Shown: positions 4,917 through 60,525 of the stretch, in pieces
Numbering within the stretch: position 1 is the stretch's first letter
Layout of the letters: each line of letters opens with the position of its first letter
Source of the DNA: Spirogloea muscicola
Taxonomy: Eukaryota > Streptophyta > Zygnematophyceae > Spirogloeales > Spirogloeaceae
Direction: 5' to 3'
DNA length: 64,000 bases
NCBI GenBank assembly: GCA_009602725.1
Contig: WELB01000040.1
Location: forward strand, 444,565-508,564
Program-made: the position numbers and the translations under genes
Notes under the pieces: generated by a model
What the model was told of the DNA's origin: nothing
Database searches by the model: none
What the model saw: the letters and a program-made list of their open reading frames with translations, nothing else

Positions 4917-4967
4917 ATTTGACTGGTGGCTGTGAGAGGCCACAGCCCAAAGGAATGGACAAAAAGT
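4917..4967 (-). repeat. Hairpin repeat copy
   Basis: One copy of the dispersed hairpin family: GTGGCTGTGAGAGGCCACAG followed by CCCAAAGGAATGGACAA. On the minus strand it reads in the orientation CCATTCCTTTGGGCTG...CAGCC used in my description of the family. Confidence 0.7.
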
Positions 4968-5339
4968 AAACAGCGTGCAATCACAGCCATCGCCCTCTAC
5001 TGGAAGAGTCTTTCTTCTTTGGAATAGCTCTTCAACTCTTCTGCTAGTGGTCGGTGACATTCACGCTCATTGAGCTAAGCCAGTTATACTGAAGCTATTG
5101 TGGCCGTTGACAGGGTTAATGAGGAGCCGTCCACATTAAGAGCAATGCAATGATATGCAGTCCGTGATCAGTCTCATTTGGGTCCAGTCCAGGTCTACTC
5201 AATCTCAGTCCATACATAGTCAACATCAGTGCAGATCAACTCTAGCCCGATCCACATCTAGGAAGAGCAGTCGCAAATGTGAGTCCCGAATTGTCAAAGA
5301 GCTCACTTCACATCCGCTGTGACCTCACTGCGCGGCCAG

Positions 5340-5760
5340 CAGCAGACAAATAGCTCTTCCAAGGTGACGGGAATGGCTTTGAGAGGCCAACCCAAAGAAA
5401 TGCATGCTTTCACCTGCGTGCTGACCGTGCTCTCGCGGCGGCCTCTGGCTTTCGTCATGGGAATTGTTTCCCGACATCTAGTCTTTCGGATCTGAGTCGT
5501 AGCTATTGAGTGGTTCAGCCTCTCCCAGTTCTGAGATAGAGAAGTGGCTCTCCCAATGGGGCAAGGGCTATGAGAAGCCAGCCCGAATAGAACAGAAGAG
5601 AGGGCTCGCCCATTGAGAACATGGGCTGGAAAAGCCAGCCCAAAAACGAAGGAACAAAGCAAAACATAGCGCTTTTGGCCCCTTCGTTTGTTGGCCCCTT
5701 CGAACTTTGTCAAATCTTTTTTCTAAGCTGGCTTCTCATAGCCCTTGCCCTTTAGGAGGC
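5340..5760. repeat. Cluster of hairpin repeats
   Basis: Four copies or fragments in about 400 nt: 5370-5405, 5563-5595 (GGGCTATGAGAAGCCAGCCC), 5616-5650 (GGGCTGGAAAAGCCAGCCC, nearly a perfect inverted repeat) and 5728-5757 in the opposite orientation (GGCTTCTCATAGCCCTTGCC). The last one lies immediately before the retrotransposon-derived reading frame that starts at 5745. Confidence 0.75.
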
Positions 5761-6720
5761 TGCCAGAGATTCACAACAAGCCAAGGAGCCTGGCAAGACG
5801 TACTTCCCTCGCCACACCTGGAGCCACAGACTGGATCACCTCACACGCCGTGGCCAGCGCCTTCAGCATCAGCTCCGAGGCCTTTCGGACGTTGCTTCCA
5901 CTCTTCCTCGGCCTCCCACCTAACTGCCTGATTGGGGTGCGCCAGTGTGAGTGCGGCTTCCGTGCAGAGAGTGCTGAGCTCGCCACTCACATGCTGCGAT
6001 GCCCCACTGGACCAGAAGTGGTGGGCATCCACAACCTCCTCCGTGATCCTCTGGCGGGTTTGATGCGCGACGCCGGGTACCGTGCGGTCGTGGAAGTGAA
6101 CAAGATCATGCCTATCACCACGGATTTCCAGGGACGTCATCATCGCCGCACACTTGACATTGTGGGCGTGCAACCTGGTGGAGGACCAAGGGCTTTGGTC
6201 GATATTGTGGTTACGGAGGCCTATCAAAGTCCAGCATCGACACACATCGCTGGCCACGCAGTGGGCAGTGCTGAACAAAGAAAGTTGCAGCAATACTCCG
6301 ATTACTCCCGATGTGATCAGCTCTTGCCAGCGGCAATCGACATCTTTGGCTGCTTAGGTCCTCGTTTCCTTACTCTCCTTCAAAACATAGCCAATCTAAG
6401 CTACACACGACATGCAGATGTGTTTCCGGCTGAGATGGGCTTGCCAGCTGCTCATCTGTCGTTGTTGCGACGACGAGTTTCGGCCTGTTTGCAGCGTGCT
6501 CAGGCAAAAGCTTTGCACCCCAAAGCTGGGCGAGCTCTAGTTGGTGGCAGAAGGGCTTCGTATCTGCCATCTAGTATCCAGGCATCGGTTAGCGACCTTT
6601 ATGTTTTGACCCGTGGTTACTGAGCGGGTCAATCTACTGTAGGTTATGTAGGTCTTAAGATGTGCTTGCCTTTGTACTTGGCCATTTGGCCTTCGTTTGT
6701 TTCAATTACACGAAATTCCC
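5745..6720 (+). mobile_element. 3' part of a non-LTR retrotransposon with restriction-like endonuclease (copy A)
   Basis: An uninterrupted 292-residue frame (5745-6623) looks like the C-terminus of a LINE-type polyprotein rather than a host gene. It contains a region with LFLGLPPNCL, a Cys/His knuckle CECGFRAES...HMLRCP, and then a probable PD-(D/E)XK restriction-like endonuclease: RTLDIVGVQPGG, ALVDIVVTEAY, a following EQRKLQQYSDY lysine/tyrosine motif and FGCLGPRF. No reverse transcriptase domain is present, so the copy is 5'-truncated. The 3' UTR runs through TGTGCTTGCCTTTGTACTTGGCC at about 6660-6690. A second copy sits at 34980-35700, and short tails occur near 16.6, 19.1, 23.3, 32.2 and 34.0 kb. 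Assignment rests on motif order; I could not run a profile search. Whether the initiating ATG is used is doubtful. Confidence 0.75.
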
Positions 6721-8375
6721 CCTTGCCCCCGTTGGGAGAGCCACTTTATTCAAAGGAATGGACAAGGTCTGAATGGCCCAAAAAGGGTCTGAAAGCATCT
6801 CGTCGCGGATTTGCTGGTCTAGCGGAGCTCCTGAGCTTGCCAAGTGGCAGATTGGGCAGGCGGAACCCGAGGAACGAACAAAACAGACATGGGCACCCAC
6901 TCGGATGGGCGCCCTTATCAGTAGTGGTAAGCGTCCACTCGCAGAGCCTACGGAGAATGGTTCGTGCTTTTGCAACAGCCGGCCCTTGCGGACATCTTTG
7001 GCTGGCTTGGTCAGCCCCTCTTCTTTCAGGGCGCGCCATTTCTTTCTCCGGCTCCTTCAGTCCATTCCTTTGGGCTGGCATCTCGCAGCCACCAGTCAAT
7101 CTGGCCGCATTCTCTTCTTTCTTCGCAAAAAGAGAGAAGAAGCTCGCCCATAGAGAAGAGTAGCTGGCAAAGCCAGCCCAAAAAGAATAGACAATGTCCA
7201 AAGCCAAAAGAAAAGAGGTGTCGAAAAAAGACTACACTACAAAACACGAGACGATGCAGAGGGAAGCTCAGTACCCGCGAGTGAGCAACATCAAGTCAGA
7301 GTAGCTCGCTGCAGGAGAATGAGTGTGTCTTAAGAGATGGAGTGCTTGTTGTTCTTCGTACTTCCCCTGGCCCCTCCTCGTCCTTTGTTCATTCTTTTCT
7401 GGGCTGGCTTTATCCAGCCCCACTCCTCAATGGGCGAGCCCTTCTCCTGTGTGGCCAAGAACAAAGGCAAGCACAGGGAAGGAGGCACTCCGCCAAGACC
7501 CAGAGGCAGCAGCCATAGCACGGCCTGCTCGCGAGTGGACGGCGTAGGCAAGGGAGCATTGGAACGAGACCGCCAGGCGCAAGAAGAAGTGGCACTCCCA
7601 ATGGGGGCAAGGGCTGTGATAGGCCAGCCCGAAAAGCATTGACAAGTTTTGAAGGGGCCAAACTACGAAGGGGCCAGAATCGTTATCTCAGAACTGGGGT
7701 AGGATGAACCACTTGCGGACCTTGTCCATTCCTTTGTGGGCTGGCCTTTCACAGCCATCGCTTTTACTAAAAGAGCTTAGTCTCCCTCTACTTATTCAGA
7801 CTTGCACTTACTGACTAGAAATTATTGAGAGCCCACTTGCTGACGTCTTGGAGCCTAGTATCCTGCTTACTCCAGAGAACAGCGCCTCCAAATTGACAGC
7901 GGTGGCTGTGAGAGGCCAGCCCAAAAGCGATTTTGCGCCATTCGGACCTTTCAGACCTTGTCCATTCCTTTGAGCTTTCACTGCCATTGCTGTCAAATTG
8001 GAAGAGCTGTTTTCTTCTGTTTTGCTGCTGACCTGACAGGCAAGCTCGTGCTACACACGCTGTGGACTGCCCACAGCGTGCCACACATGGGCAGTCCATT
8101 TGATCTGCCTTAACTTGGGCAGCCACTGATCCTGTCCTTGGATCTAAGCATTCTCAATAACTTCTAGATATTGATTTGTTGCAACAATATGTGCAGTATC
8201 TGAGTATGAAAATGTTAAAGCAGAGTGCTATTATGATGCTCAACTTGTCTCCTAAATTTGCACGACATAGTAAGCTCATCCAAAGAGGGCGAGGGCTGTG
8301 AAAAGGCAGCCTGAAGCCAGAAGGTAGTAAGCCCATCCAACGAGGGCGAGGGCTGTGAAAAGCCAGCCCAAACAA
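6721..8375. repeat. Dense nest of hairpin repeats and fragments
   Basis: Copies in both orientations at about 6745-6790, 7062-7115, 7150-7210, 7385-7440, 7590-7660, 7720-7765, 7890-7985 and a tandem pair at 8285-8305 / 8340-8372. Recognisable modules are CCATTCNTTTGGGCTGGC, CACAGCCNTCGCC and GACAAGGTCNGAAGGGGCC. The tandem pair is a duplication of about 60 nt beginning TAAGCYCATCCAA. Segment 7140-7310 recurs at 31705-31880. No host gene is visible; the open frames here are chance products of the repeats. Confidence 0.75.
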
Positions 8376-8869
8376 TGTGGAAAGAATCCGAAGGACCTGA
8401 TCGAATTACTGGCTACTAGTTGACGGAGTGCCGAGGCTACCCGTGCAGGTATACTAGCGGTTTTTAGGTGACCTTTATTCCAGGTACTTATTCAATCGTG
8501 TGTTGAAGCGCTTTTGGGCCCCTTCGGGCCTTATACTCTACGGTGTGCGTAGGAAGTGCGATTTCAACACAAACTAGCACTACAGATTATTGTGCCGTTT
8601 AGCGAACCCGCCGGTACCGTCTCCTCTCTGCAGGCATTGGGCGCTTGCACCGCCTCCCTGCTCGCCAGCGACCCGACCCCCCCTTGCTGATCTCGACCAG
8701 ACCAAGCGCCGCCCCAAAGCCCGTCTCTCCCCGATCTAGAGCCCTATCCGGACCCGCGGCAGCGCCTGAAGCGGTTCGCAGTTGTGGGCTGCCGTGCGGA
8801 GGGGCGCTGATCTGGCGCCTGAGTGAAACGGCTGCCGAGGCCCGGCTGGCTTGCGAGGGCAGGTCCGCC
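8376..8869. promoter_or_regulatory. Upstream region / 5' UTR of phosphomannose isomerase
   Basis: A GC-rich leader from about 8590 precedes the PMI start codon. The PMI frame is open upstream to 8645, which would add 75 residues, but the family's conserved N-terminus begins only at the ATG at 8870. I therefore treat 8645-8869 as leader. A plastid or other targeting extension is possible but not supported by composition I recognise. Confidence 0.4.
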
Positions 8870-11161
8870 ATGCTCCGGCTCCGATGCGTCGCACAGAACT
8901 ACGACTGGGGCCTGCTGGGGCCCCACAGCGCGGTGGCCAGCCTCTACGCTCTGGCCAGCCGAGAGCCTGCGAAGCCCGACAAGCCGTATGCGGAGCTGTG
9001 GATGGGCACGCACCCCAGCGGGCCCTCCGTCCTAATCCCATCAGAGGCGGCTGATGGCGGGGAGCCACAGCCTCTCAAGGCCTGGCTGGCAGCGCACCCA
9101 GAGGCCCTTGGCGACGGGGTGCGCGATCGATGGGGTGGCGATCTGCCCTTCCTCTTCAAGGTACCGGCACCAAACACACTGACAGCGCCACCCACCGGCG
9201 CCTGGCATGGCAGGATCGGTGAACGATCTTTTGACCGGATGGCCATGCCCAAATCATGGTCCACGAGCATTGCCATTGCCTGCACTACGCGTGCCAATCA
9301 ATGGTGCGCTGCGGTCGGGCTCGTCAGGCCATGGCCCCACAGAAAATGCAGCCAGCAAATCGGCAATGCTGAAGCGGCGGTGCTGCACGGCCCCTTTCTT
9401 GCAGGTCCTGTCTGTGGCGAAGGCGCTATCCATCCAGGCGCACCCCAACAAGGTGCTGGCAGAGCGTCTGCACGCTTCCCAACCACAGCACTACAAGGAC
9501 AACAACCACAAGCCGGAGATGGCGCTTGCCCTCACACCCTTCGAGGTGTTGTGCAGCTTCGTCTCCACTGAGGTATGGATACTTATAAGAAGTGCATTCC
9601 TCCCTGGGCACGTGCGCAAGCACAGGTGTGCAAAAGCAAGAGCAGAAACCCACGGGTTTTGTTGCAATACCTGCATATTGTACAAATCGTGACCAGAACC
9701 GTAACCTTCATTACTACCAGTCTGATCTAGCTTTGTGCCCTTATGGCGTCACAGGAGCTGAAGCGCAGTATCGAGACAGTGCCAGAGCTCCGCAAGGTGC
9801 TCGGGGAGAAGGCTTGTGACATGGTGATGAGCGGTCGCCCGTCAGAGAGAGATGCCCTGCGAGAGGCCTTCACGGTGCTCATGACCAGCGACAAACCAGC
9901 AGTGGAGGCCGCCCTTGCTGAGCTGGTTCCCCGCTTGACTGAGGTGCATGACAGGAAGCAGAGCCCACCCTTTATAGCCTGCGTGTAGGAGTCCTTCTGA
10001 CTATCCAGTCTGCAAAGTGTTCGGCCAAACGAATCTGAACCATCTTCCCCGGGCATCTGGCTCCTTTGGCACCTCTGTTGTCTTTGCTTTGATAATCATG
10101 AAGAGACCTCCCATTAAACAACGTGCTGCCCCACTTATCCAACAGTGAATCTGGTCTGCTCTACCTCGAAATCTGACTTTTCACAGATTGATCTTTCTTC
10201 TTAAGCAGAAAGCCGAGCGGACACCCAAGGAGGACCTCCTGTTGCGCCTTGAGCGCCAATACCCTGGTGATGTTGGCGTGCTGTCTGCGTGCTTCCTCAA
10301 CCACCTGATGCTGGAGCCCGGCACAGCTGTCTACCTCGCCGCCAATGAGCCGCATGCCTACCTCTCTGGCGAGTGCATTGAGTGCATGGCAGCATCTGAC
10401 AACGTCGTGCGTGCGGGCCTCACCCCCAAGTTCCGCGACACCGAGACGCTCTGCTCCATGCTGACATACAAGCAGGTAACTATTGTGACGTCCGAGTTCG
10501 TGACAGCATCATCCACTTGGCAGTAGTCGGATCCGGCACTGGTCATGAAAGTCATGGCCCTCCAATCATCAAGTACCTCCACACAATGTGCTAGGGGCTA
10601 CCCGAGATACTGCAGGGCGTCGTGCTCGACAAGTACACAAGCCGCTACACGCCACCGTTTGATGAATTCGAAGTTGACCGCATCACCATGCCTGTCGGCG
10701 AGTCATACAAGTTGGCTGCCTCCAGTGGCCCCTCCATCCTCCTCACCTTCCAGGTACGTAAGGAGATGCAGCCAGCACACCAGCATGCGACTAAGCTGTT
10801 GCGCGCCCAACATCAGCTGGAATTGCCTAGATGCCTGACTGGTCAAGCATTGAGCAGAACGAAAGCTACGCATGTGAGAACATCATTAGCAATCTATTGT
10901 CTAGCAAACCTCTAAACCTTAAATTCCAGCTAAGTCTCGTTTCAAGTGCGCTTGGTGCTGCAGGGCAAAGGTGCTGCCACTCAGGAGTGGGCTGGCGCGC
11001 AGAGTGTGAGCGGCCTGAAGAAGGGCGACATCCTGCTCGTGCCGGCGGGGGCCATACTGGAGCTCTCGGCAGTGGTGGAGGCTGATGGTGGAGGCGCCGC
11101 ACCGCCCGAGGACCCACTGCAATTGTATCGGGCGCTGGTCAACAGCCGGGCGCTGCAGTAG
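8870..11161 (+). CDS. PMI: Mannose-6-phosphate isomerase (type I)
   Basis: Six exons: 8870-9160, 9405-9572, 9755-9943, 10209-10475, 10595-10753, 10964-11161. All introns are phase 0 with GT-AG ends, and the product is 423 aa, close to plant PMI lengths. The enzyme interconverts fructose-6-phosphate and mannose-6-phosphate, feeding GDP-mannose for glycans, wall polymers and ascorbate. It is a cytosolic, zinc-dependent cupin enzyme. Visible landmarks are the N-terminal [12 protein letters not shown], the [13 protein letters not shown] block, [20 protein letters not shown] (zinc-site Gln/His around residues 108-110), the signature [32 protein letters not shown] and the substrate-site block [11 protein letters not shown]. 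The 3' end of exon 3 is the least certain junction; I chose the GAG|gtgcat donor because it joins in frame to [12 protein letters not shown] and no stop intervenes. Confidence 0.95.
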
Positions 11162-11353
11162 CGGCCCCGCAGCCCATCGGATGGGGCTTGTCATCACGTC
11201 CTCTGAAGCTAGCCCGCATTCACACTGAGCACGCCTGTGAGAGATCTCTGGACCAGTTTCGATCCTGTGCCTGACGAGTGGAAGTACTACACCTCCTGAC
11301 CTGCTGGCCATAAGGCCAACGCAGCGCCATGTCCGCCGCTACTTTCGTCGACC

Positions 11354-17068: not shown

Positions 17069-18557
17069 TTAAAGGAGCATCTTACGAGAAGAAGCGCCAG
17101 CGTGCTGCCCAGCACGTCTGGTGGTAGTCTTAGAGGTGCCAAAGCGCGAGAACTTGCAGTCGGTGGCCAGGAGGCTGGATGTGAGATAGTCCTCGGGTTC
17201 GCCGTCGAGGTAGCCATTGCCGTCGGGGCCGGCGACCTGCCAGACCTGAAGCAGCGGGCTCCACTCGCGCACGTAAGCAAAGTGGCGATCCTTCTGGTCG
17301 GCCCGGAACGTCTGGCCGAGCACGCCGTGAGGGTTGGACGACAGGCCCACGGCTGACACCATGTCCACGGAGAAGTGCACGTATGAGTCTGCCGCAGTGC
17401 GCAGCTCAGGGACCTCAGGCCGCAACTTGAGCACCAGGTCTGCGACGCCCACGACGGAGAGCTCGTAGCGATCGACGTCGTCATCGCCGTCCAGGCCGTG
17501 GCCGAGGAAGGTGAGCGCCACTGCTGCGTCGCGAGTCACGAAGCGCTCGCCCTCGGCGAGGCGCACGGCGCGGCCGTCGACGTGGATGGAGTGCATGTAG
17601 CCTGCGCCGCGCTCGGGCTCGGCGCCGCCTCGCGCTGCCAGGACGACACTGTGGCCGTCGGACAGCACACCGAGCTGCTTGATCCACGAGTATGTGTTGG
17701 GCCCTTCCACGCGGCCATCCAGATGCATGTTCACCTGCAGCCTCTCGTCTGTCACCATGCAGTAGTCGTTACCGGGCGCGCCTGCAGGAGAGCAAGCAGG
17801 ACGCGACAATCAGTCAGACATATGATCGATCTCATCGTCACGCAGGTAGGAAAGTTGTCTCGAGCAGCTGAAATCACGTCAGTGCGTTCCATGCATAAGT
17901 AAGCATGTAATATTGTAAGCATGCTCCAAAGGAGAGGCCGAGCAGGACGCCAAATTGCAACGCTGCACATAGGGAGCGCGTTGGTGCGTGAAGCTCACCG
18001 GTGAAGTCGAAGGCGACAGAGTCGGCGCCGGTGAAGTGGGGGTCGCCCTTGACGCCGGCACCCTTGCACTTGGTGGAGTCCAGTGAGGCGGGCTTGAGGC
18101 AGAAGGGCCCGACATTGTACTGCTGCTCCTTGTTACAGTTGCCGCTAGAGTCCTGAATGTTGTCGCCCGTTGTGTCGCCATTGCTGCACGAGCCTATAAC
18201 GGAGCACGACGAGCCGGAGGGCGCGGACACCAGCTTGACGAAGCAGCCCTGGAACTTGTTCTGGAACGGCGCGAGCCAGTCGAAGAGGACCTCGAAGTAG
18301 CCATTGGAGTCCGTGGTGGCGGTGTAGACGGTGGACGTCTTGGCGCCATTGACGAGGCAGTAGGACTGAACCGTGGCGCCCTTGACGTAGGCGTCGCCCT
18401 GGCTGGCGTTGTACGTGCCCGTCCAGCAGGTGTTACAGAAGACGACGCCGGAGCCGTACCAGGTCGCGGCGGCGGGCGCGGCGCCCAGCGCCAGGACCAG
18501 CGCCGCGGCCAGCAGCAGCGTGGCGGCGGCGTTCGGGGCGACGGTGGTGGCGGCCAT
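17069..18557 (-). CDS. Secreted Ole e 1-like / root-cap domain protein (inverted paralogue)
   Basis: Two exons on the minus strand, 18557-17999 and 17781-17069, with a phase-1 GT-AG intron at the same position as in the gene at 2145. Together they encode 423 aa. The signal peptide carries an extra N-terminal stretch (MAATTVAPNAAAT) before the hydrophobic core. The Ole e 1 domain has FCNTCWTG, SYCLVNGAKTST and CFVKLVSAPSGSSC. The root-cap domain spans KGDPHFTGADSVAFDFTG to LLATDCKFSRF. The frame is open upstream to 18719, but the ATG at 18557 places the signal peptide correctly. Differences from the gene at 2145 include a one-residue insertion (NGDTTGDNIQ versus NGDTGNTIQ). A central stretch of exon 2 is almost identical to the other two copies at the nucleotide level, although the gene lies about 14 kb away and inverted. 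Confidence 0.93.
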
Positions 18558-18960: not shown

Positions 18961-18974
18961 GCGTCCTTTGCTTT

Positions 18975-19225
18975 GCTTGTTTGTCCATTTGGGCTGGCCT
19001 CACAGCCGTTGCCTTACATCAAAATCTGTTACTTTCCTTGTCTGCAATAAGACTATGGACGGGCTCTCGTTGATGGCAGAAGGGGCTTAAGATCTGCCGT
19101 TCAGTATCTGACAAACGACTGGCGACCTCTACTTGCTGGCCCGTCGTCAGTGGTCGGGTCGGCGTAGTAGCAGGTATGTACATCTACGGATGTGCTTGCC
19201 TTTGGTACTCGGCCACTAGCCCTGT
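18975..19225 (+). mobile_element. Hairpin repeat plus degraded retrotransposon tail
   Basis: A hairpin copy (TTTGGGCTGGCCTCACAGCC at 18988-19007) is followed by decayed coding sequence related to the end of copy A. Recognisable pieces are a degraded version of the GGRRASYLPSS...LYVLTRG segment (here ...MAEGA, then GDLYLLARR) and the 3' UTR motif TGTGCTTGCCTTTGGTACTCGGCC at 19194. Stops and frameshifts are present. Confidence 0.65.
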
Positions 19226-20560
19226 CGTGCCGTATCCCGTCGACGGCCTATTTGTGTCGATCTGACTAGGACAGCTGACCTGGCCTGACACGTGTGTCTC
19301 ACGGCTGAGTCACACAGTTTTGGATGTGAATCGAGCCAGGGATGGGGACCTCTTCAGACCGAAGTTGAGGCAGCCGCTCATCAATATCTACCTTAACAAT
19401 GTGATGGCGCGATGACGACGAATTGACAACAACCCTTGCGACGAAGGGACCTACAAGGGCCCAAGCCCACGCACAACGGCAACCGTCCGATTGTGGAACG
19501 GAAGGCTGAAGCTCACCACCCGAGGGGCTGATCGACCACCTGGGTCCGGTGGTTGGCTCACGAAGGGCCGGCCAACCAGCTTAGCTAACCAGCGTAGCCG
19601 GCCGAACCTGGCCTATTAGGCAGCGCTAGGATCTCTTCAGAGCTCGGCCCAAGCCGGGCGAGCAGCCCAAGCCGAGCAGTTCGAACGGCAAGTCTCACGC
19701 TCTTGTTGCGAGCCACGCCTGCGCCAACGCCGCGCCATAGAAGCGTAACGCCTTGGGCAGGAGCCGCAGCAGCTAGTGAACCTTCGCTTGGACCCGCTTG
19801 CGACTGCGAGAAGTCGTGGTGACTCTGCGCTGAGCAGCCTTTGACGCATTGTGCTGTCTGTCACGAGCACATTACACCAAAGCGCTAGTTCTTGCATTTC
19901 CTCAGTTACAATTGTCGACCGAAGGCTAGTGGCATCATGACCGTGTAGCAACTGTTAACCTTGCCGTACCAAAATCTTGTGGACAAGGTACTGCATAAAT
20001 TGCTTGCTTGAACAATCTGGCAAATATTGCTTCGTGTGTACATTCCTACATCTTGCCTCTTCTGCATCGAGTTACCAAAGCCGTATTACAACCGATCTGG
20101 TGACTAAAGCCGTGATACGATCGATTTGGTGACTAAAGCCGTGATTCGATTGATCTGGTTACCAAAGCCGAGGCATTACCTATTATTCTATCATCTCTGA
20201 GTCCGACTCATCTCGTTGAAGTAACAGGTTAACATTTGGACCTTTTAATGTTTCCATCGACATTGCATGTGATCAATGATCGTCGACGCTGGCCTCTTAT
20301 CAGACTGCCTTTCTTTGTCAGCCTGGCCAATGCAACCAACTTCTTATTCGGTTTGTGTATTACATAGTCTGCATACGTCAGCATTTGTCTCTATCTAGAC
20401 CATCGATGCCATCTCGTATAGACGCCCTCTCGCATGACAGCCCCTCCATCGATCAGAAGAGGCTCTATAGCTGCTGCCTCCGGGTCTAGGCGGAGTGCCT
20501 CTTTCCCGGCTGCGAATTACTCGGACTTGCTGCTGCTCAGCCGTGGTCACCGAGCTTTCC
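19226..20560. other. Intergenic with a small tandem repeat
   Basis: No gene recognised. At about 20070-20170 a degenerate unit of roughly 35 nt is repeated three to four times. Its core is ACCAAAGCCG or ACTAAAGCCG followed by TATTACAACCGATCTGGT-like sequence. Only short frames occur elsewhere. Confidence 0.55.
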
Positions 20561-20564
20561 TTTG

Positions 20565-21010
20565 TGTCGCCTCGTGTCTAGCTGTGTAGCTTTTCTTCTC
20601 GGCACCTTGTTTGGCTCTTCGGATTTTGTTTGTTTTGGGCTGGCTTTGCCAGCCCCTCTTCTCTACGGGCGAGCAATTTCTTTCCTGCTTTGCAGCAGGC
20701 CTCTCAGCGTCACTTCGATCCTGCTTCTACTGCTGTCTGAAAGTGAAGTTGTTACTTTACATGAGACGTTGGCTGAGAAAGGCCAGCCCGAAAATCGTTC
20801 GACAAGGTCCGCAGGGGCCGGAGAGCACCAATCAAAGAGCTGGGCAATTGGCTATGACGAATGAGTGCTCAATGACCCCTAGTCTACAGCCGCAGGTCGA
20901 AGTAGCTAGCTGCTCAAATATAGCGCCACGTCGAAAACCAGAAGCAGCAGCTGAAATGCGGCTTCCCACAGATGCACGGCAAGTGCCTGAGTGCGCAGGA
21001 GCGAGACTGA
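20565..21010. repeat. Composite dispersed repeat
   Basis: 20565-20720 is the reverse complement of the module seen at 7140-7310 and 31705-31880: hairpin TTTTGGGCTGGCTTTGCCAG with the flank CTCTACGGGCGAGC. It is followed in direct orientation by AAAGGCCAGCCCGAAAATCG...GACAAGGTCCG...GGGGCC and the downstream module with CAGCCGCAGGTCG near 20888. Confidence 0.65.
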
Positions 21011-22314: not shown

Positions 22315-22700
22315 TTTCTCCAGAGGGGGCGGGGGCTGCGAAATGCCTATGAAATGTGCTGTAAAGTGTGAAACTCAATTATGAGTGGGCGTTGAGGGTG
22401 GTCAAGGCAAGCTACTTCAAGAGAGACATTTCCAGGAGAAAGTAAGCTATTCAAATATTAAGATGGCTGTCAAAGCCAGCCCAAATATGACATAGTCTGA
22501 AAGAGAAGAGAGCACTTCCATAGGCGATGACTGGGACGTAGCCCAGATAACGTATGAACACGGCTCAAAAACAAAATCTTTTGAACGCGGGCGGTGGCTG
22601 TGAAAGGGCAAGCCCAAAAGGCTGTGACAAGGTCCAGAAGGGCCAGAGAGCGGAAACCACGTAGCAAGGCAAGTGGCTAGAACAAACGGGGGCTCAGCGA
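22315..22700. repeat. Hairpin repeat fragments
   Basis: Three copies: 22325-22350 (GGGGGCTGCGAAATGCC), 22463-22490 (GATGGCTGTCAAAGCCAGCC) and 22585-22660 (GGTGGCTGTGAAAGGGCAAG, then GACAAGGTCCAGAAGGGCC). The last is followed by the module with GCTCAGCGATCCCTAGTCAG. Confidence 0.6.
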
Positions 22701-23039: not shown

Positions 23040-23200
23040 GACAAGAAAAGAAGTGAGCTCTTCCAGAGTGGGGGCTGTGATGAACCAGCCAGAACAAGGT
23101 CCAACGGGCCAAAAGGCGCCAAGACCACACGGCTATGCAAGAGACTACAGCGAATGGGATCTTAGTAACCCCGAGATAGCAGCCGCAAGTTGGAGAATAT
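23040..23200 (+). repeat. Hairpin repeat copy with downstream module
   Basis: GGGGGCTGTGATGAACCAGC, then ACAAGGTCCAACGGGCC, a divergent middle and TAGCAGCCGCAAGTTGGAGA. This is the same module order as the better preserved copies at 34560 and 59575. Confidence 0.6.
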
Positions 23201-31584: not shown

Positions 31585-31990
31585 TCAGCGCTTTTCGGCG
31601 CCTTCGGACCTTGTCCACTCTTTTCAAGCTGGCTTTTCACAGCCCTCGCCCTCTTTGAGAGAGCCACTTCTTCTTTGAACGAGTTTACTTACTTTTGCTG
31701 AGAGGAAGAAAGTGCTCGCCCATAGAGGAGGAGCTGGCAAAGCCCGACCAGAAAGAATGGACAATGTCCAAAGCCAAAGACAGAGGTGCCGAAAAAAGAC
31801 TACACTACAAAACACGAGACGATGCAGAGGTAAGCTCAGTACCTGCGAGTGAGCAACATCAAGTCAGAGAGGAGGGACACCCAGACGCAGCCACTACCCC
31901 CGCGAGTCCGGGCGCGTCAGGTCGTTGTGGGCTTCTTGGGGCCGGCATTCACAGCCCTCGCCACCTTTGGAAGAGCTGCTTCATCCACCC
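31585..31990. repeat. Hairpin repeats and duplicated module
   Basis: 31590-31665 reads TTCGGACCTTGTCCACTCTT then AGCTGGCTTTTCACAGCCCT and CGCCCTC, one of the best preserved copies. 31705-31880 matches 7140-7310 over about 165 nt with few differences (shared AAAAAAGACTACACTACAAA, then ACACGAGACGATGCAGAG and GAGTGAGCAACATCAAGTCA). A further fragment is at 31940-31975 (GGCATTCACAGCCCTCGCC). Confidence 0.75.
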
Positions 31991-34559: not shown

Positions 34560-34850
34560 CCCTGTGCAGAGAAGTGGCACTCCCAACGGGGGCAAGGGCT
34601 GTGAAAAGCCAGCCTTAAAAAAATTAGACAAAGGTTCGAAGGGGCCAAATGACAGAGGGGCCTAAAAAGCGCTAAGCAGCTACGAAGGGTCCTGAAGATG
34701 CTATGTCAGAACGGGGGAGGATGGACCACTCAGTAGTCACGAGTGAGGAGCCTCAAATCCGACAGACTAGCTGCCGACTATCCCCTTGCCGAAAGCCTGA
34801 GGCCACAGCGAGAGCACGGCCAGCACGCAGATGCAAGGCGTGGGCCATGG
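34560..34850 (+). repeat. Dispersed repeat, hairpin plus downstream module
   Basis: GGGGGCAAGGGCTGTGAAAA then GCCAGCC, a linker with AGACAAAGGTTCGAAGGGGC, and a divergent downstream module (GTCACGAGTGAGGAGCCTCA, CTGAGGCCACAGCGAGAGCA). It shows that hairpin and downstream module belong to one composite element of about 250-300 nt. Confidence 0.7.
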
Positions 34851-34939
34851 ACCGCTGAAGGGAGTCTGACAATCACATGCGGTCTACCTGTGCAGCAGTA
34901 GCTTGCATAGCTGTGTAACATCAGCGCCTCTCGGCCCTC

Positions 34940-35710
34940 TGGTCCATTATTCTTGGGCTGGCTTTGCTAGCCCCCCTTCTCGAGGCTGCGATGCCCCACT
35001 GGACCAGAAGTAGTGGGCATCCACAACCTCCTCCGTGATGCCCTGGCGGGTTTGATGCGCGACACCGGGTTTCGTGCGGTCGTGGAAGTAAATAACATCA
35101 TGCCTATCACCACGGATGCCCAGAGACGTCATCATTGCCGCACACTTGATGTTGTCGGTGTGCAACCTGGTGGAGGACCACGGGCCTTGGTCGATGTTGT
35201 GGTTACGGAGGCCTATAAAGGTCCAGCATAGACACACATCGCTGGCCACGCAGTGGGCAGTGCTGAACAAAGAAAGGTGCAGCACTACTCCGATTACCCC
35301 CAATGTGATCAGCTCCTGCCAGCGGCAATCGACATCTTTGGCTGCTTAGGTCCTCGTTTCCTTACTCTCCTTCAAAACATAGCCAATCTAGGCTACACAC
35401 GACGCGCAGATGTGTTTCCGGCTGAGATGGGCTTGCCAGCTGCATATCTGTCGTTCTTGCGACGACGAGTTTCGGCCTGTTTGCAGCGTGCTCAGGCTAA
35501 TGCTTTGCACCAAAAAGCTGGGCGAGCTCTAGTTGGTGGCAGAAGGGCTTCGTATCTGCCATCTAGTATTCCGGCGACCTTCATGTTTTGACCCGTGGTT
35601 ACTGAGCGGGTCAATCTACTGTAGATTACGTAGGTCTTAAGATGTGCTTGCCTTTGTACTTGGCCATTTGGCCTTCGTTTGTTTCAAATACACGAAGTTT
35701 TTCCTTCTCT
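34940..35710 (+). mobile_element. Non-LTR retrotransposon 3' part, copy B (inactivated)
   Basis: Begins abruptly at about 34984, directly after a hairpin copy (CTTGGGCTGGCTTTGCTAGC). It starts inside the zinc-knuckle region of copy A (CPTGPEVVGIHNLLRD) and continues through the endonuclease-like domain (RTLDVVGVQPGG, ALVDVVVTEAY). A TAG at 35229-35231 replaces a serine codon present in copy A. A small deletion near 35575 removes the segment before the conserved LTRG end and shifts the frame. The 3' UTR with TGTGCTTGCCTTTGTACTTG and TTTGGCCTTCGTTTGTTTCA matches copy A. Identity to copy A over about 600 nt is very high by eye, so the insertion is fairly recent. Confidence 0.8.
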
Positions 35711-35885
35711 CAGGGCGAGCACTTTCTTCTGGAACTTGTCCAATTTGGTTTTGGGCTGTGGCCTTTCACCGCCCTCGCCGCCTTGTGCTTTTGCGTAGCC
35801 CGTTTGGCTTCGTTCGTCTTCAGTACAGGCCGTTTCGGTTTTGTTACCTGTACCCACGATTTTGTTACCTGTACCCACGAGTGAG
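35711..35885 (+). repeat. Hairpin repeat remnant and 20-nt tandem repeat
   Basis: A divergent hairpin copy (TTTTGGGCTGTGGCCTTTCA, CCGCCCTCGCC) lies at 35738-35782. At about 35840-35881 the unit TTTTGTTACCTGTACCCACG occurs twice in tandem. Confidence 0.7.
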
Positions 35886-42000: not shown

Positions 42001-45000
42001 GAGTGAGGTGCTCACTAAGCCAGATGCAGGAAGCAGAGAGACAGCGGAGCAGGTTGTAGCTGAGAAGTCAGATGCTCAAGATGGCTATATGGAGGTACCA
42101 GAGAGCCAGGGCTTATCAGGAAGAGCAGCTCTTGATCGGCTAAGAGAATATTACTCAGAGGGATTGTTGACTCCCACTCACGTGCCGTTGCAGCCGCAGC
42201 AGGGCGTTGCGGATGTTTCGCAGGAGGTCATGAGGAGGGAATCCAGCACAAGCTTGGCTGAGGGCTCCACACATGGGAGTGAGAGGAGTGATACTTCTTC
42301 AGAGGTCGAAGTTGCCATCACAACAGTTCTACTAGGATCAGAGGGTCTTGCAAAAGAATCTATTGAATCACTGGCACCAGATGATGAGCAAAAGCATCAT
42401 CATTTAGGCACCGTCCCAGGCACTGGTGAAGCAGCATTAGTTGCTAGTCATTCAGGCCAGACTAGTGGCAGCGACCTGCTTGCCAACCAATCAGGCCAGG
42501 ACTTCACACAGGAGCAGGAGCAGGAGCAGCAGAAAGTGGGAAATGTGGGAGAAGTATCTATATCTAGAGTAGAAGTTGCTGGTGATAAACAGATTGATCC
42601 TGCCCATGACGTGGTCAACGTAGAGGTAGATAGGTCAGAGGTCACTGAAGGTGAGGCTCCTACTGGGGTGAAGCCATTGGAAGCAGCATCAGTCTGCCTG
42701 ATTTCACAAGAGTGGCTTCGGGTCTACTCAATGTCAGCCATTTTGAGAGTAGGATCCCTCACTCTGAGCTGCTCAGTCATGTCAGTCTGTTGGTCAGACA
42801 TAGGACCTGCTTTGCTTGCCAACTGCTGTTGAGAATCTGGGACCATGGATGAAAATGTTGTGTTTGGTGCATAGCATTTTGGTGCATAGCAACAAATGAG
42901 CTTGCTGCTTCACTGTGCAGGGTGAGCGGAAATCTTTGAAGAAAATAAGACTGCACGAGTCGGGTTGTGCCTGGGCTGCTGCCTGTGGCGATGATGAATT
43001 TCCATCAGCTCTGGCCTTGCTCTCTCGCGCTGGCGATCTTGAGATCAGGTGAAGTACCACATTCTTGGCACGGCTTTAGATGCTTGCGGACGTCCCAAAG
43101 CCTAGCTGACACTCGACGACCTTGTTGTCTATCACTCTCATAGTATGCAGGACCTCAACGCATAAGTCACAGGTGGCTTGTCTGCACTCTGTGCAGGAGT
43201 TTCTCTGATATGGCAGTGAATTACGAGAGATCAATTCAAGCAGTCACAGGTTCAGAGTACGAGCATTTGACGGACCTGCTACCATCCATGACTTGTACAG
43301 CAGACGGCCGTATCACCTGCGTAAGGTCATACCCCTTGGGAGCATATAAGAGAGTGAGGGCAAGAGAGAAAGAGGGGGGCGAGGGAGGGAGGGAGGGAGG
43401 GCATGAGGTTCCTATATCTCTTGTATGCCCTTAAGCATACAAGCATACATCCGGCCTTTTCAGACCTTGTCCATTCTTTTGGGCTGGCCTCTCACAGCCA
43501 CTGCTCTCGTTTATGCAGTCTCAGTCTCAGTGAGTCAGAGGCTGATATTGACTTTGTGGTCAAGCTTGCAGCTCGGTGGCGATAACGAGCTACTCCAGCT
43601 GTCGCTTTTCCATGAGGAGAACGCGTTAAGGTATGCTCCCAAGGGAACACGTGAGACCTAGCAAGAGTTGGCCCGTTCACATGTGGACAGGGTAGGTCCG
43701 CCCATCTTCTAGCCTCGTTGTGTAAGATTGACAATTCCTCACAGCTACAGCATGCAAGCTTCTGGAAAACGGGTCAGCTGGGAGGTTTTCAATTGGCAAA
43801 TTATATAAAATCCCCTAACAGCTGTTAGCTGTTTCTCCTTCAGAGTACCTGAGTCGCTCCCAAGTTTGCACGACAAGATGCTCGCAGAAGCTGCAGATGC
43901 AGCAGCTGCAGCCCTTGAGGCTGCTGTGGCTGTGGCCTCGCCACCTACCACCTCCAGCTCAAGTCATGTTCCTTTCCAACGACATTCGGCTCCTGAAGCA
44001 AAGCGATGGGTATGAGGAAGCTGTCCCACAGCCTGACATAAGCTGCTTGGGACTTTCTATGGAGCAGTTTGATGGCAAGATCAACAAGAGGCCTAATAGA
44101 GCTTGTTGTATCAGAATGAAACAGGATATGACCTAACACAGATATATAGGTGGGAAGACGGTGATATAGCTTACTAGTCTAAAATGGAAAGTGGGACTTT
44201 TGCAGCTGCAGGAGAGTGTCAGATGCTATTGCTTCGTATAAGCACGGCACATTCTGATGTGATGTGTGACATGTCTTGCAAGGCATGCAGGGGTTGTTTG
44301 AGGACATCAAGGGCGTGGTGAGCAATGTCAGTAGCACAGTCGTGGCTGTGAGCACCACTGTGGCGTCCATCCCGCAGATGGCTCAAGGCAAGGAGAAGAA
44401 GCTCTCGTCTGAGGGAAGCAGTAAGGAGCAGCGAAGACTTGCGCATACTGCAGCAGAGCTTTCCGACCTCTTCACCTCCCAACCATTTGCCGTGGTGCCG
44501 GTACCCAAAGTGGAGGCCCATGACCCCTTTGATGGCGCCCCTTCTCCACGCAACGATTCATCTGTCAATTCTGTGGAGGGTGAGCATGTCATGGTCCAAA
44601 AGGGCTGCAGGCCTCGCAGCTTGTTTCGGGCTTCCTTGCAAGTATCTATGGGGAGTCGTGGTCGCAGCTTATCTAGTATTCAGTGAGATAGATCCACTGC
44701 AAGTCACTTCCACAGAGTCCAACCTCCAGGAAAGGATTTTTGCCTCAGGTCAATGTATGTGTATGCTATTATGCAGAGCATGAGCCTGCTGAGCAATGTT
44801 GTGACAGCTTCTCTGCAGAAATTCTCGGGGAGGGTTCTGTGCCAATAAGGTTGGTTATTGAGGAACTTCCACAAGACACTTCTGATGCGGAGCCTGTAGT
44901 ACCTGACAAGAAGCCTAACAGGCCTAGCGGTCTCTTTGGCAGCCGCCTCTTTCGAAACAGCCGCAGTGGTGACCTCAGTAACATTCCATCGCTCAGTAAT

Positions 45001-50702: not shown

Positions 50703-50732
50703 CCCGTCATGCGCATGGCTGAGACTGCGCCA

Positions 50733-52070: not shown

Positions 52071-52422
52071 TGACACAAGAGGGGCGGAAGAAGGGGGGAG
52101 GCGCGGGCCGGGGTGGCCGCAGTGGCGGGGCGGGCGTGCCCTGGACTGGACGCCGCAGGCTTGGGCGCCGCCGCCGCTGCCTGGCAGGCAGCAGGAGCGG
52201 CCAGCTGCCATGGCTGCCGCAGGCATCGGCGCATTGGAAGCAACTAAAGCGGAAAGCGGCTGGCGCGGGTGCCTGGCTTGAAGCCACCCCACGGGCACGG
52301 CCGGCTTGGAGTACTGGCAGGTCCGCCGCCGGGCCTGGGCCAGGGCTGACACTGGAACGAAGGCTTGAGCACTCGAACACTTGACCTGGTTTGGAGCGGC
52401 ACAAGGCGTCCGTCTGCCCCCC

Positions 52423-55400: not shown

Positions 55401-58400
55401 TGCCCGCAAGTGGGTTCCTTTCTGCAAAAAGTTCAGCATTGAGCCGCGTGCTCCAGAGGTTTATTTTGCTCAGAAGCTGGACTATCTCAAGGACAAGGTG
55501 CAGCCAAGCTTTGTGCGCGATCGGCGTGCAATGAAGGTGAGCACTCTCTGATGCCTAGCTGAAGGCTGGTGGCTTGAGCATCCACTCAAACCTCTTGCCT
55601 GTTACGGATTATATTGGAATTGGCAGCTTTACCCCTGCTCACCAGCTGACTGAGCTCTTCTTTCACATGGGCAGAGGGAGTACGAAGAGTGGAAGGTCCG
55701 TCTCAATGCGCTTGTGGCCAAGGCCTCAAAGGTACCCGAGGACGGGTGGACTATGCAAGATGGCACACCATGGCCAGGAAATAACACTCGCGACCACCCC
55801 GGCATGATCCAGGTGACCATGTCATCTGTCAGCTGTCCAAGCCATGTCAGCTGGCTTGGAGCCATGTCATCTGTCAGCTGTCAGTGTGTCCTGTGGCATG
55901 CTGGCCGCATGCAAGTACCTCATCAATTGCACCCATTGCAATTGCCTTCTAACGCTGACTAGCTGGCGCAGGTCTTCTTGGGTGCCAGTGGAGGTCACGA
56001 CACCGATGGCTTGCCGCTACCCCGGCTGGTCTATGTATCACGTGAGAAGCGGCCAGGGTATAATCACCACAAGAAGGCAGGAGCCATGAATTCGCTTGTA
56101 AGTTCGCAGCACATACTGTATACCACCGGACTTAATAAAGCGGCGCTTGAGCTGCTCTTCTGTCATTGACTACTATGCATTCTAAACTGACAAAGACAAG
56201 CTGTCAGCAACTCACATTCTTATGCCTTGCCTGTCATCATGTAAACACCGGCCATGTTACCATGTCGCAACGCAATGCTTGACATACATTCTGTCACACT
56301 CTTGCTCAGGTTCGAGTGTCGGCTGTCCTCACAAATGCGCCGTACATCCTTAACTTGGATTGCGACCACTATGTGAACAACTGCAAGGCGCTGCGAGAGG
56401 CAATGTGCTTCATGATGGACCCAGCTCTTGGGAAGAAAGTTTGCTACGTCCAATTTCCCCAACGTTTTGACGGCATTGATCGCTCCGATCGCTATGCCAA
56501 TCACAATACAGTCTTCTTCGATGTGAGTACTCCACAACTTGTCTTTGACTGAGTCTAAGTAAAGACTGGAATGTCAGACATTGTTCTGGTTTAGTATGTG
56601 CTTCTTATTAAATTAATCTGAACCAGTGTAAGCTCCATGTCATCAATGCTCGTTGATCACGTCGCAGCTGCAAAGCTGGTCGGATGCATCTGCTGACTTC
56701 AGCCCACTATTTCTGGTGCTCGCTATCTGATACCATGAGTGGCTCCTATGTATGTGCAGATCAATCTGAGAGGGTTGGATGGCATCCAGGGGCCTGTTTA
56801 CGTCGGGACTGGCTGCTGCTTCCGGCGGCAGGCTCTGTATGCTTACGATCCGCCGGCGCTTAAGCGGAAACCTCGGGGCTGCCTTACCAGCTGCTGCTTG
56901 ACTTTATGCTGCTGTGGGAATCCCCGCAAGAAGGTCGCCCCCAAGCCGCTAAAGCCGCCCAAGTTTGGCAAGGGGGGCAAGGAGTCGAAGAAGCAGAGGA
57001 ACAACCAAAAGGATGCCGGCAACCTCCCCTTGCACTACCTTGAGGATGCCCACAGTGGTGAGTGCTGCTCTCATTGCACGCCACTATGACATGTCACTGT
57101 TGAGCCAATCCTGATGGCTTGACTGAGCTGAGGAGTAGTCCCAGTCCACCACATGGCATCCACTGACCAATCCCAAGAAGCATTGCAGTTGGTGGGGACG
57201 GCGAGACAGACAGCCTGATGACCATGCGGAGGTTTGAGAAGCGCTTTGGACAGTCGCCTGTCTTTGTGCTGTCGACCTTCAAGGAGGAAGGCGGCAGTGT
57301 GGGCGCCGGCAATCCCAGCTCCATTCTCAAGGAGGCAATCCATGTGATCTCGTGCGGATACGAGGAGAAGACGGACTGGGGCAAGGAGGTGGGGTGGATC
57401 TATGGTTCAGTGACAGAGGACATCCTCACGGGCTTCAAGATGCACGTCCGCGGCTGGCGCAGCATCTACTGCATCCCGCCACGAGCCGCATTCAAGGGCT
57501 CCGCGCCCATCAACCTGTCAGACCGCCTCAACCAGGTCCTGCGGTGGGCGCTGGGCTCCGTGGAGATCTTCCTCTCCATGTACTGCCCCATCTGGTTCGG
57601 CTGGGGCCCCGGCCGCCTCAAGTTCCTCCAGCGCATTGCCTACATCAACACTGTCATCTACCCCTTCACGTCCTTCCCTCTCGTCACTTACTGCACGCTG
57701 CCCGCCATCTGCCTCCTCACAAACAAGTTCATCATCCCGCAAATCGGCGACCTGGCATCCATCTACTTCATCGCCATGTTCCTCTCTATCTTCGTGACTG
57801 CCATCCTTGAAATGAGGTGGAGCGGTGTTGGCCTTGAGGAGTGGTGGAGGAATGAGCAATTTTGGGTCATTGGAGGCGTCTCAAGCCACCTGTATGCTGT
57901 CGTCCAGGTCAGTCTGGTACACCATGTTTTGGCGGGTGGACTGCTCCTGGACAGCCTTCTGTGTGCTTCTTGTGAGCGGATAGTGTTGCTCATAGATTTC
58001 CTTCTTCGCCTGCAGGGACTTTTGAAGGTGCTGGCTGGCATTGACACAAACTTCACGGTCACAGCCAAGGCTGCTGAGGATGCAGAGTTTGGCGAGCTGT
58101 ACATATTCAAGTGGACGTCCCTACTCATTCCTCCTACTACTATCCTGGTGATTAATATTGTGGGCATTGTGGCTGGCGTTGCCAATGCCATCAACAACGG
58201 CGTGGGCAATGGGACCAACGCGTGGGGGTCCCTGTTTGGGAAGCTATTCTTTGCTCTTTGGGTCATCGTGCATCTCTATCCTTTCCTCAAGGTACAGTAC
58301 AACTCCTCTTGTCATCCCCTACCTCCAACAAGAACAACCTAATTTAGAGCTTGTTGCAGCATTGGCCGTCACAAGATGATTTTTCCCCCAAAGCTTTTCT

Positions 58401-58632: not shown

Positions 58633-59574
58633 GGCTTCAGAAGGAAGACCATGTAATGTTTTTAGGTGGTCAGATCGTCAACACCGTGGGGAAGACGGCT
58701 TGACGACTGCTGGGAGAGGCTAGCCTCCTCACCACGTGGTTGAGAAAGGCGCAACGTGGAGTCATGCACAAGACTGCGTGGAGCTCGCACAAGAGACGGC
58801 AGCGGAAGGCGACCTTTGTGGAGGCTCACTCAGCTCACTTGATGGAAGACCTTATCATACGCAGGACTTAGCCAGGAGTCAGCCCATCATGGCACAGAAT
58901 GTTGGGTAACCACAGCGGGTGATCAAACCTGCGACGTGCTGAAGCGGTCTGAATGGAAAGACTCCTTCTGCCAGATTAAGCCACCCTGTCGAAGTCAGGG
59001 AGACTGGGTGGCCAATGCAGCCAGGAATGCAACCAGGTACCCATGTTGGGTACCTGGACCTGGAAGATCATCTGAGGGAGGATGCAAGAGGAGGATGAAG
59101 GTGGTCAGTGTAGTCAATTCACCTTCTGACTCTTTTGGACTGGTAGTTTTGTACCGTCCAGCCCCATCCTGTGCCTTCAATCGTACATTGCTGCACGCTT
59201 GGGCATTGGTGGTCTACTGAATGCAGGACCGAAGGAGTCCTTCAGGTCACATTTGTTGGTATTGACTGAGAGAAAGGCTTGTCATGGCTTTGTGGCGGAG
59301 TAGGTTGAGAACAGGTGTCGCAGATGAAACATATCTCAGCAGAATGAGAGCAGATACTACCAATTGTCCTCAGTGTATGCACAAATCAGACTGTATGCCT
59401 CAAATTTGGCATGCATAGCAACCACCCTTGTTCGATACAAACAGTGTAAGGTTAAATAATCTTGGACTGCAGGCTGCTATGTGCTGATGTTATGTTACTG
59501 ATGTGAAGCAGCTGCATGCTCAAGCGTGGCCAGTAAATTGAAAAGCTTATGGCCTTCGTGCATAAACACTCTTC
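58633..59574. other. CesA 3' flank, no gene seen
   Basis: Short frames only. A tandem unit of about 24 nt (CCCCCRAAGCTTTTCTGTGC) occurs just before this, in the last CesA intron at 58385-58430. Confidence 0.5.
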
Positions 59575-59800
59575 CAGTAGAGGGCGATGGCTGTGATTGG
59601 CCAGCCCAGAAATATGAACAAGGTTCAAAGGGGCCTAGATGACGCACACAGTGACTCAAGTGGTTACTGGGTGCTCAGTACACTAGTGAGCAGCCGCACG
59701 TCAGAGAAAGTAGCTTCTGAATAGCAGGTCCCCTGTCTATAGCCAGAGGTTGCGGCCAAAGCGCGACCAGCATCGCAGATACAGGCTACCTGGAAGACTT
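59575..59800 (+). repeat. Composite dispersed repeat, well preserved copy
   Basis: Module order: AGAGGGCGATGGCTGTGATT / GGCCAGCCC hairpin, AACAAGGTTCAAAGGGGCC, GTGACTCAAGTGGTTACTGG, GTGCTCAGTACACTAGTGAG, CAGCCGCACGTCAGAGAAAG, GCAGGTCCCCTGTCTATAGC and CAGAGGTTGCGGCCAAAGCG. It is one of the clearest full-length examples (about 220 nt). Confidence 0.8.
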
Positions 59801-60464
59801 CGAAGAATTTCACCACGAGAGATTTAGCAATATCGTGATAATTGTACCTACAAGTCAAGCACACCAAGAAATGTACAGGTGTTGTGATGGTCCTTACTTG
59901 TGCTATCACCACAATGGTCAAACTAACATGTGGTCTGCTTGACTATTTAGGTTAGTGATGGTCGCACAGACTCCTGTGATGAAGTGGAAGCTTGGTGGAT
60001 GACATGCTTATACTTCATCACTGTGTACTAGTTAGATATGCATGCGCTTTTAAACCATGATATATTGCGTACGTGCTATAGAGGGTGTGCATGGTCACTC
60101 TGAGTGACCAAGATCGGGCACCTGCACATGGTGCTCCATTCCCTTTGGCCACACAATCACTGCGCTTGCAGTAAGCCATTACGGTACAAGTTCTACTGAT
60201 GTGCAAAACTTGTACGCATATGTCATTTTTGCAACTTTCTTGCATGGACTAGCAGATGAATTCACCATGATCCTGGTACAGTGGAGTATTCCCACCACCT
60301 TCAAGTGTTCGCAGCCCCAGGTAACAAGAAGTAAAGGTCATCTTGCTAATCTTCAACCACAACAATAAGGTAAGTGCGATAGCGCCTCAGGTCAACTCGC
60401 CTGACTAGGGAAGTGCAAGAAGAGTAGGGAGGCAACCTGGTGCCAGCAGCCCAGGAAGAACAGA

Positions 60465-60525
60465 CGCTTCCTTTAGAGGGCGGTGGCTGTGAGAGGTCAG
60501 CCCAGACGAAGCTCGTGGCCAGAGA
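60465..60525 (+). repeat. Hairpin repeat copy
   Basis: TTTAGAGGGCGGTGGCTGTG, AGAGGTCAGCCC. The stem is preserved and the downstream module is missing or diverged. Confidence 0.65.

Follow-up and report, generated by a model that had tools for sequence, protein, structure and literature searches.

Dispersed hairpin repeats of Spirogloea muscicola as the probable 3' ends of several related LINE families

Repeat copies in the window and in the genome

The stretch of DNA analyzed here (the window) comprises 64,000 nucleotides of the streptophyte Spirogloea muscicola (Zygnematophyceae; assembly GCA_009602725.1, contig WELB01000040.1, positions 444,565 to 508,564) and carries many copies of a short hairpin repeat interspersed with fragments of retrotransposon coding sequence. 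A first-pass annotation had described these as a dispersed family with shared flanks, different from long terminal repeat (LTR) elements and of no obvious class. The results presented below make it very probable that the repeats represent the 3' ends of several related families of long interspersed nuclear elements (LINEs), most copies being truncated at the 5' side and ending in a stem-loop of the stringent type.

The dispersed family is real. With at most one mismatch, GGCTGNCNNNNNNCAGCC gave 31 strand-matches at 18 distinct places in the window, against a mean of 3.87 and a maximum of 13 in shuffled sequences, none of 100 reaching 31; three of the 18 places (1061, 9049 and 57939) lie outside the family and are probably due to chance. 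BLAST with five 3'-end consensus strings that include the flanks revealed 32 segments, some of which are fragments without a full hairpin (e.g. 6720-6746, 6751-6783, 23094-23114 and 34939-34965). A segment lies at or beside each position listed in the first-pass annotation, in both orientations. Throughout the genome (153 Mb, 471 contigs) the exact core GGGCTGGCNTTTCACAGCC was matched 1,963 times (1009 + 954; reversed-pattern control 0 + 0), or about 13 per Mb, compared with two exact cores in the 64-kb window. Exact-tail counts, which cover tail families A, C and D, were 2742, 2568 and 1360, respectively, giving 6,670 copies with a control of 0 for each.

A sample of 91 sequences (about 300 kb; L-numbers, L109 overlapping L107) yielded 483 segments, 252 of them reaching the 3' end; their density is unrepresentative, because most loci were picked for holding the core or a reverse transcriptase (RT) fragment. 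The features of the window are named here according to the reading given above, and each rests on a match to the 3'-end consensus strings A-E unless another basis is stated (ORF, open reading frame; UTR, untranslated region).

4906..4962 (-), LINE 3' end, tail family D (hairpin and 3' tail), 91% to the D consensus
5348..5402 (-), LINE 3' end, family E
5540..5592 (-), LINE 3' end, family A
5597..5659 (-), LINE 3' end, family C
5691..5750 (+), LINE 3' end, family A; complete ORF end at 5444-5506 (+)
5742..6620 (+), sister (W-type) non-LTR retrotransposon C-terminal coding part, recognized by a C/H motif resembling a knuckle and the signature of a restriction-like endonuclease
6720..6746 (+), fragment of a family A 3' tail, hairpin absent
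6751..6783 (-), 3' UTR flank fragment, family E-like, without hairpin
7060..7108 (+), LINE 3' end, family D
7142..7330 (-), longer LINE copy: ORF end 7271-7330, 3' UTR, hairpin (segment 7169-7203), ATGGGCGAGC tail
7366..7443 (+), LINE 3' end, family C, 94%; 7-bp hairpin in the predicted fold
7585..7661 (-), LINE 3' end, family A
7717..7761 (+), LINE 3' end, best match to family B
7886..7927 (-), LINE 3' end, family E
7941..8012 (+), LINE 3' end, family E, hairpin partly lost
8269..8311 (-), LINE 3' end, family B
8326..8397 (-), LINE 3' end, family B; the 8269..8311 copy lies 57 bp away and is 93% alike over 44 nt
18976..19019 (+), LINE 3' end, family E
20464..20681 (+), LINE copy: ORF end 20464-20550, 3' UTR, family C hairpin end 20633-20681
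20771..20819 (-), LINE 3' end, family A-like
22319..22347 (-), LINE 3' end fragment, family B
22584..22641 (-), LINE 3' end, family B
23049..23114 (-), family B LINE 3' end in two segments; ahead of it (by eye) an LLSRGY-like ORF end interrupted by a frame break
31601..31664 (+), LINE 3' end, family B
31739..31773 (-), LINE 3' UTR/hairpin fragment
31932..31977 (+), LINE 3' end, family B
34570..34893 (-), LINE copy: ORF C-terminus split in two (34733-34893), 3' UTR, family A hairpin end 34570-34648
34939..34965 (+), LINE 3' UTR fragment up to the hairpin start
34986..35579 (+), another W-type retrotransposon C-terminus; residues 85-282 match 5742-6620 at 88%
35730..35784 (+), LINE 3' end, family B-like
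43452..43504 (+), LINE 3' end, family E, 96%
59569..59771 (-), LINE copy: ORF fragment 59685-59771, family E hairpin end 59569-59635
60467..60510 (-), LINE 3' end, family E

Two opposite-strand copies lie between the ORF end at 5444-5506 and the 3' end at 5691..5750; judged by eye, they may split one longer copy.

Anatomy of the 3' ends

Read in the orientation GGGCTGGC...CACAGCC, the hairpin has the form GGGCTG(8 nt)CAGCC and is followed by a family-specific tail of approximately 28 nt. Across copies CCTTNGTCNATTCTTTT tends to precede it, and the shared flank of the first-pass annotation recurs as a GGCCCCTTCGNACCTTTGTCNATTCTTTT-like sequence that copies tend to have ahead of the hairpin. At least five tail families can be distinguished: A (CTTGCCCCCATTGGGAGNGCCACTTCTT), B (CTCGCCCCCTTTGGAAGAGC), C (CTATCCTCAATGGGCGAGC), D (ACCAGTCAATCTGGCCGCGCTT) and E (ATTGCCTTACATTGGAAGAGC), with B (12 copies compared) and E (7 copies) less tightly defined than the rest. 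The consensus of the stem is identical in A-E, and the families vary in the loop and the loop-closing position. The commonest loop is GCTTTTCA in families A (46/83) and B (17/75), GCTTTTCC in C (17/68), GCCTCTCC in D (15/32) and GCCTCTCA in E (20/66). Pairwise similarity, in counts that include overlapping windows of one locus, mostly stops within about 50 nt rightward of where the core starts; in some copies it extends further leftward.

Linkage to retrotransposon coding ends

Copies that extend leftward enter coding sequence ending in (L/S)-(T/S)-R-x-Y-stop. The distance from the last residue of the retrotransposon C-terminus to the hairpin start is 66-123 nt in 14 hairpin-type rows, and the C-termini ahead of hairpins are about 38-40% identical to the RT-type ORF of the window (5742-6620). 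Locus L037 holds the whole order in one piece, with an open C-terminus of 314 aa, a stop, a hairpin 91 nt past the last residue and a C tail. At five of eight C-terminus matches, one of the five being the query itself, the exact A tail follows 104-126 nt downstream on the same strand; the eight come from the part of the genome common to the C-terminus and A-tail listings (C1, C2, C3 up to 797 kb).

Complete C-termini were counted with five queries (L037, L042, L064, L048 and L085) that differ from the window's own type, here called W. A hairpin 3' end was found 40-160 nt downstream on the same strand at 65 of the 92 non-W C-termini and on the opposite strand at four; upstream of the same 92 the numbers were 19 and 7. 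For 44 W-type C-termini there were 11 same-strand hairpin ends and one opposite-strand end downstream, and two and one upstream (one copy, in L107 and L109, counted twice).

The RT fragment at 5742-6620 was considered as the source of the hairpin and rejected. The W family is not the source, because its loci terminate in an end of their own, TACACGA(A/T) or a close variant without hairpin, in 28 of 30 cases (by eye); in L080 and L090 the match is lost before this end. L098-L109 and the genome listing also contain W-type copies whose C-termini are the same or nearly so, with frames open for up to 1350 aa and the hairpin-free 3' end TACACGAT; W-type LINEs have perhaps been active recently.

In a tree of 75 C-termini, based on few columns, 32 rows, most of them with hairpins, form a clade apart from the other 43 rows (support 99/97). 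On this tree tail D requires 2 changes against 4.7 when shuffled (1/500 as low) and tail A 9 against 13.4 (2/500 as low), and four C tails fall within one six-row group (support 100/98). Tail type thus tracks protein lineage in part.

Copy ends and insertion sites

An exact 8-mer that begins at the 3' end is found again upstream in 19, 26 and 18 of the 252 copies at offsets 0, +1 and +2, compared with 2.5, 3.5 and 3.8 for shuffled partners, and the excess spans offsets of about -1 to +5 and weakens beyond. When all known copies were masked the values were 14/183, 17/182 and 10/189 against 2.5, 1.9 and 2.0. Direct repeats of at least 9 within 1.2 kb accompany 44 of the 252 copies, versus 11-19 in five shuffles.

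Thirty-five of the 252 copies are bounded by repeats of at least 9 within 400 bp. These share a fixed 3' end, have scattered 5' starts and measure 49-409 bp; none of the 35 ends in AAAA. Inverted-repeat matching between their termini averages 5.06 in 15 (5.11 when shuffled, 125/200 shuffles as high), in agreement with the first-pass annotation, which had seen none resembling those of miniature inverted-repeat transposable elements (MITEs). Target-site duplications were detected in a minority of copies. Around the 3' junction T and C predominate in each of the five families. At L034 the hairpin of one copy has a second copy lying within it, accompanied by a repeat of 7 bases (by eye).

Stem changes and predicted folds

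For the stem analysis 327 of the 483 segments spanned at least 40 consensus positions, and the core was obtained in 324. Pairs (1,18) and (2,17) form in 91% of these copies and the five inner pairs in 72-93%. Each inner pair shows 0-4 two-sided changes, at most one of them Watson-Crick, where independence predicts 1.1-6.3; the outermost pair shows 19, of which 10 are Watson-Crick, against 15.4 expected. Among the 324 copies there was no sign of compensatory changes, a pattern that dead copies would show. Structural constraint on the stem, one of two options in the first-pass annotation, would, if it exists, sit on the source elements rather than on the dispersed copies.

Six 3' ends were folded, and the hairpin is part of the lowest-energy fold in four. 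Compared with shuffled sequences, folding is better for two of the six (z -2.5 and -2.2) and not clearly so for the other four (z -1.2 to +0.25). An outer helix around the hairpin was considered using 100 copies and set aside: a copy's own pairing beats swapped pairing in A and C only, swapped tails mostly pairing better in B, D and E.

The encoded protein

The sister-clade element L109 (520-4458, minus strand) possesses an open ORF of 1313 aa with an RVT_1 domain (Pfam, 1.1e-16). This is the only domain above its cut-off; zinc-finger matches fall far below theirs, and a CPVC...H...H motif is visible by eye. No apurinic/apyrimidinic endonuclease (APE) was listed for this ORF in Pfam at E-values up to 1. 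Both the RT domain and the missing APE domain were read in this sister element, and the hairpin families presumably encode a related RT. Its RT part matched group II intron RTs best in PDB (8.1e-6), with R2 at 1.5e-4 and human L1 ORF2 at 0.017. Further RT matches came from several contigs (L069-L078); they score equally, have open frames of 1172-1237 aa and are probably LTR elements.

The C-terminus contains, in order, CxC...H...C, D-X14-D and K-X2-(K/H/Q)-Y. D-X14-D occurs in all three lineages compared, and the last motif reads KEIKY in L037, KEGHY in L042 and KLQQY in the window; both are kept between lineages that are only about 40% identical. The restriction-like endonuclease has been described, in excerpts of PMC5678591, as PD-(D/E) with a distant KX2KY and a knuckle CX2-3CX7-8HX4C. 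Judged from these signatures, the LINE protein is probably of the restriction-like-endonuclease (R2-like) type.

Interpretation and alternative explanations

The class that the first-pass annotation could not name is most probably that of non-LTR retrotransposons, the copies being the 3' ends of several related families; its judgement that the repeat is not an LTR is upheld. The two outcomes that it had named as refuting its proposal were largely observed, in that the copies belong to a group of transposons and the stem changes are uncompensated. A source element would encode a C-terminus ...L-(T/S)-R-x-Y-stop, followed by a short 3' UTR, the hairpin and the family tail of about 28 nt. Its protein, probably R2-like, would bind the hairpin end of its own RNA, nick a pyrimidine-rich site and prime reverse transcription from the nick (target-primed). 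Reverse transcription would often stop early, leaving stubs of 50-400 bp with short target duplications on either side. The hairpin most likely marks the end of the RNA where copying by the element's own enzyme begins. For zebrafish L2 elements the LINE protein is reported to recognize a 3' stem-loop strictly (PMC4176376, in part), and 3'-end recognition is reported for R2 (excerpts of PMC3747384). In a bolder version, which we consider doubtful, several LINE lineages kept one hairpin as a common recognition tag while their tails diverged, and RNAs and short stubs were copied across lineages in trans, by an R2-like dispersed inserter rather than a single-site specialist.

A number of observations weigh against the assignment to LINE 3' ends and to an R2-like protein. 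Most loci were taken around hairpins or RT fragments, which biases densities and counts, and queries L048 and L085 were selected for their position ahead of hairpins; the controls by strand and distance are independent of this choice. The 11 W-type C-termini of 44 that also have a downstream hairpin end are read as having neighbouring insertions. C-termini of the L042 type are followed by a hairpin in only 2 of 11 cases, and this type may therefore belong elsewhere. The hairpin elements are known here from C-termini alone, their open frames of 1400-1407 aa coming from the genome listing. On the tree, limited as it is to 75 C-termini and few columns, tails C, E and B show no clustering beyond shuffles (C 7 changes against 8.1, 111/500 as low; E 4 against 3.9; B 2 against 2.0). 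The hairpin is absent from the lowest-energy fold in two of the six folded 3' ends. About 12 of the 35 bounding repeats are made of element sequence (by eye) and may reflect neighbouring or nested copies, and some of the others are surely chance. As for the protein, the PDB matches of the RT leave the LINE clade undecided. The knuckle reads CX1CX11HX3C in the window and CX1CX12HX3C in L037, unlike the published spacing, and the P of PD is missing (LD or VD), the K and Y of KX2KY fitting. The C-terminus profile found no R2 chain in PDB, and a single-sequence structure model of the endonuclease domain reached a pLDDT of only 32.

Part of this would be accommodated if the LINEs were APE-type (L1-like) elements with an unusual C-terminus. 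The knuckle spacing is off, the RT match to R2 chains is not far from that to human L1 ORF2, and flowering plants have mostly L1-type LINEs, many of them L1-clade LINEs only (excerpts of PMC3747384). Against this, no APE domain was listed in the single ORF of the sister element, and D-X14-D and KX2(K/H/Q)Y lie downstream of the knuckle; an APE-type origin is unlikely. A group of short interspersed nuclear elements (SINEs), i.e. short RNAs of the RNA polymerase III type with a LINE-like hairpin tail and moved in trans by a LINE, would explain why repeat-bounded copies are so short, and tail sharing is the way in which SINEs borrow a stringent LINE (PMC3747384, in part). It is nevertheless quite improbable: the 35 bounded copies lack a constant 5' head, longer copies continue into LINE coding sequence, and, as the first-pass annotation had held for tRNA-type signals, ARAGORN found no tRNA gene in the window, where the only Rfam match at gathering score is an rRNA fragment.

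Frequent formation of the stem pairs (1,18) and (2,17) could be expected of a host RNA structure or regulatory hairpin under constraint, such as a terminator or small RNA, that had been copied around. Pairing-restoring two-sided changes number only 0-1 per inner pair, folding shows no clear advantage over shuffles in four of the six 3' ends, and the hairpin has no Rfam family at gathering score in the window; this explanation is very improbable. A non-autonomous DNA element (MITE or Helitron-like) with the hairpin as its terminal structure is hardly credible. It too would be short, dispersed and hairpin-bearing with direct repeats at its end, but the terminal inverted repeats of the 35 copies are no higher than in shuffles, the direct repeats vary in length and, in the main, the linkage to RT-protein C-termini refutes it. 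Helitrons were dropped in view of the direct repeats at the ends, the terminus having been judged by eye only. A dinoflagellate host and introners were likewise dropped: the spliced-leader pattern had 0 exact matches and the window contains a plant-type cellulose synthase.

Comparison with known elements

The LINE families proposed here resemble R2, R4, NeSL, CRE, HERO and Utopia in a single ORF with an RT, a knuckle-like C/H motif and then D-X14-D...KX2(K)Y, and in that no APE domain was found (sister element). They differ from R2-like LINEs in knuckle spacing, in LD or VD at the place of PD and in their plant-lineage host. Most restriction-like-endonuclease LINEs are target-specific (excerpts of PMC4640811), whereas the copies here are dispersed with pyrimidine-rich 3' junctions. 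A common stem with a loop differing by family recalls the stringent-type UnaL2 and the zebrafish elements ZfL2-1 and ZfL2-2. Those belong to the L2 clade, and UnaL2 ends in TGTAA repeats (PMC3747384, in part); here a family tail of about 28 nt follows the hairpin, which the RT would bind. Like the plant L1-clade LINE/SINE lineage, these are green-lineage LINEs with a putative 3' hairpin; the stem of that lineage varies with compensatory changes, whereas here the stem sequence is kept and copies are uncompensated. Chlamydomonas RandI/Dualen and SINEX are a further parallel, being green algal LINEs with 3' tails common to short elements (both from excerpts of PMC3747384). Dualen encodes two endonucleases (PMC4640811, in part), whereas in the sister element no APE domain was found.

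Stubs of LINEs that end in a structure are ordinary. Less so are an apparent R2-like type in a plant-lineage genome, its dispersal, and one hairpin common to five or more tail families. A class can now be given to a dispersed repeat that is abundant in this genome, with 6,670 exact-tail copies. If the restriction-like-endonuclease assignment holds, this plant-lineage genome would carry an abundant lineage of R2-like LINEs, in contrast to the mostly L1-type LINEs of flowering plants. Tail families on one hairpin would provide a natural experiment to show what portion of the 3' end is read by such a protein. A literature search, whose coverage excluded most subscription journals, found no publication on this repeat.

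Other features of the window

The rRNA fragment, at 46260-46413 on the minus strand, is of the bacterial large-subunit type (61 bits, model positions 1039-1199) and perhaps represents an organelle-derived insertion. Related gene copies, 84-90% identical and one of them inverted, occupy 77-817, 2150-3608 and 17069-18531; ORF 82-822 has a Root_cap domain just above cut-off. The ORF at 57167-58342 (+) specifies the C-terminal part of a plant-type cellulose synthase gene. It matches solved cellulose synthases with E-values down to 1.7e-161, CesA3 chains included, and bacterial-type subunits only at 1.9e-12 or worse; its best structure matches are plant enzymes. The cellulose synthase and Root_cap genes were taken to indicate a streptophyte host. 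The window ends in a run of 122 T (63879-64000), and a Phosphomannose isomerase type I domain is encoded at 8603-9568 (+).

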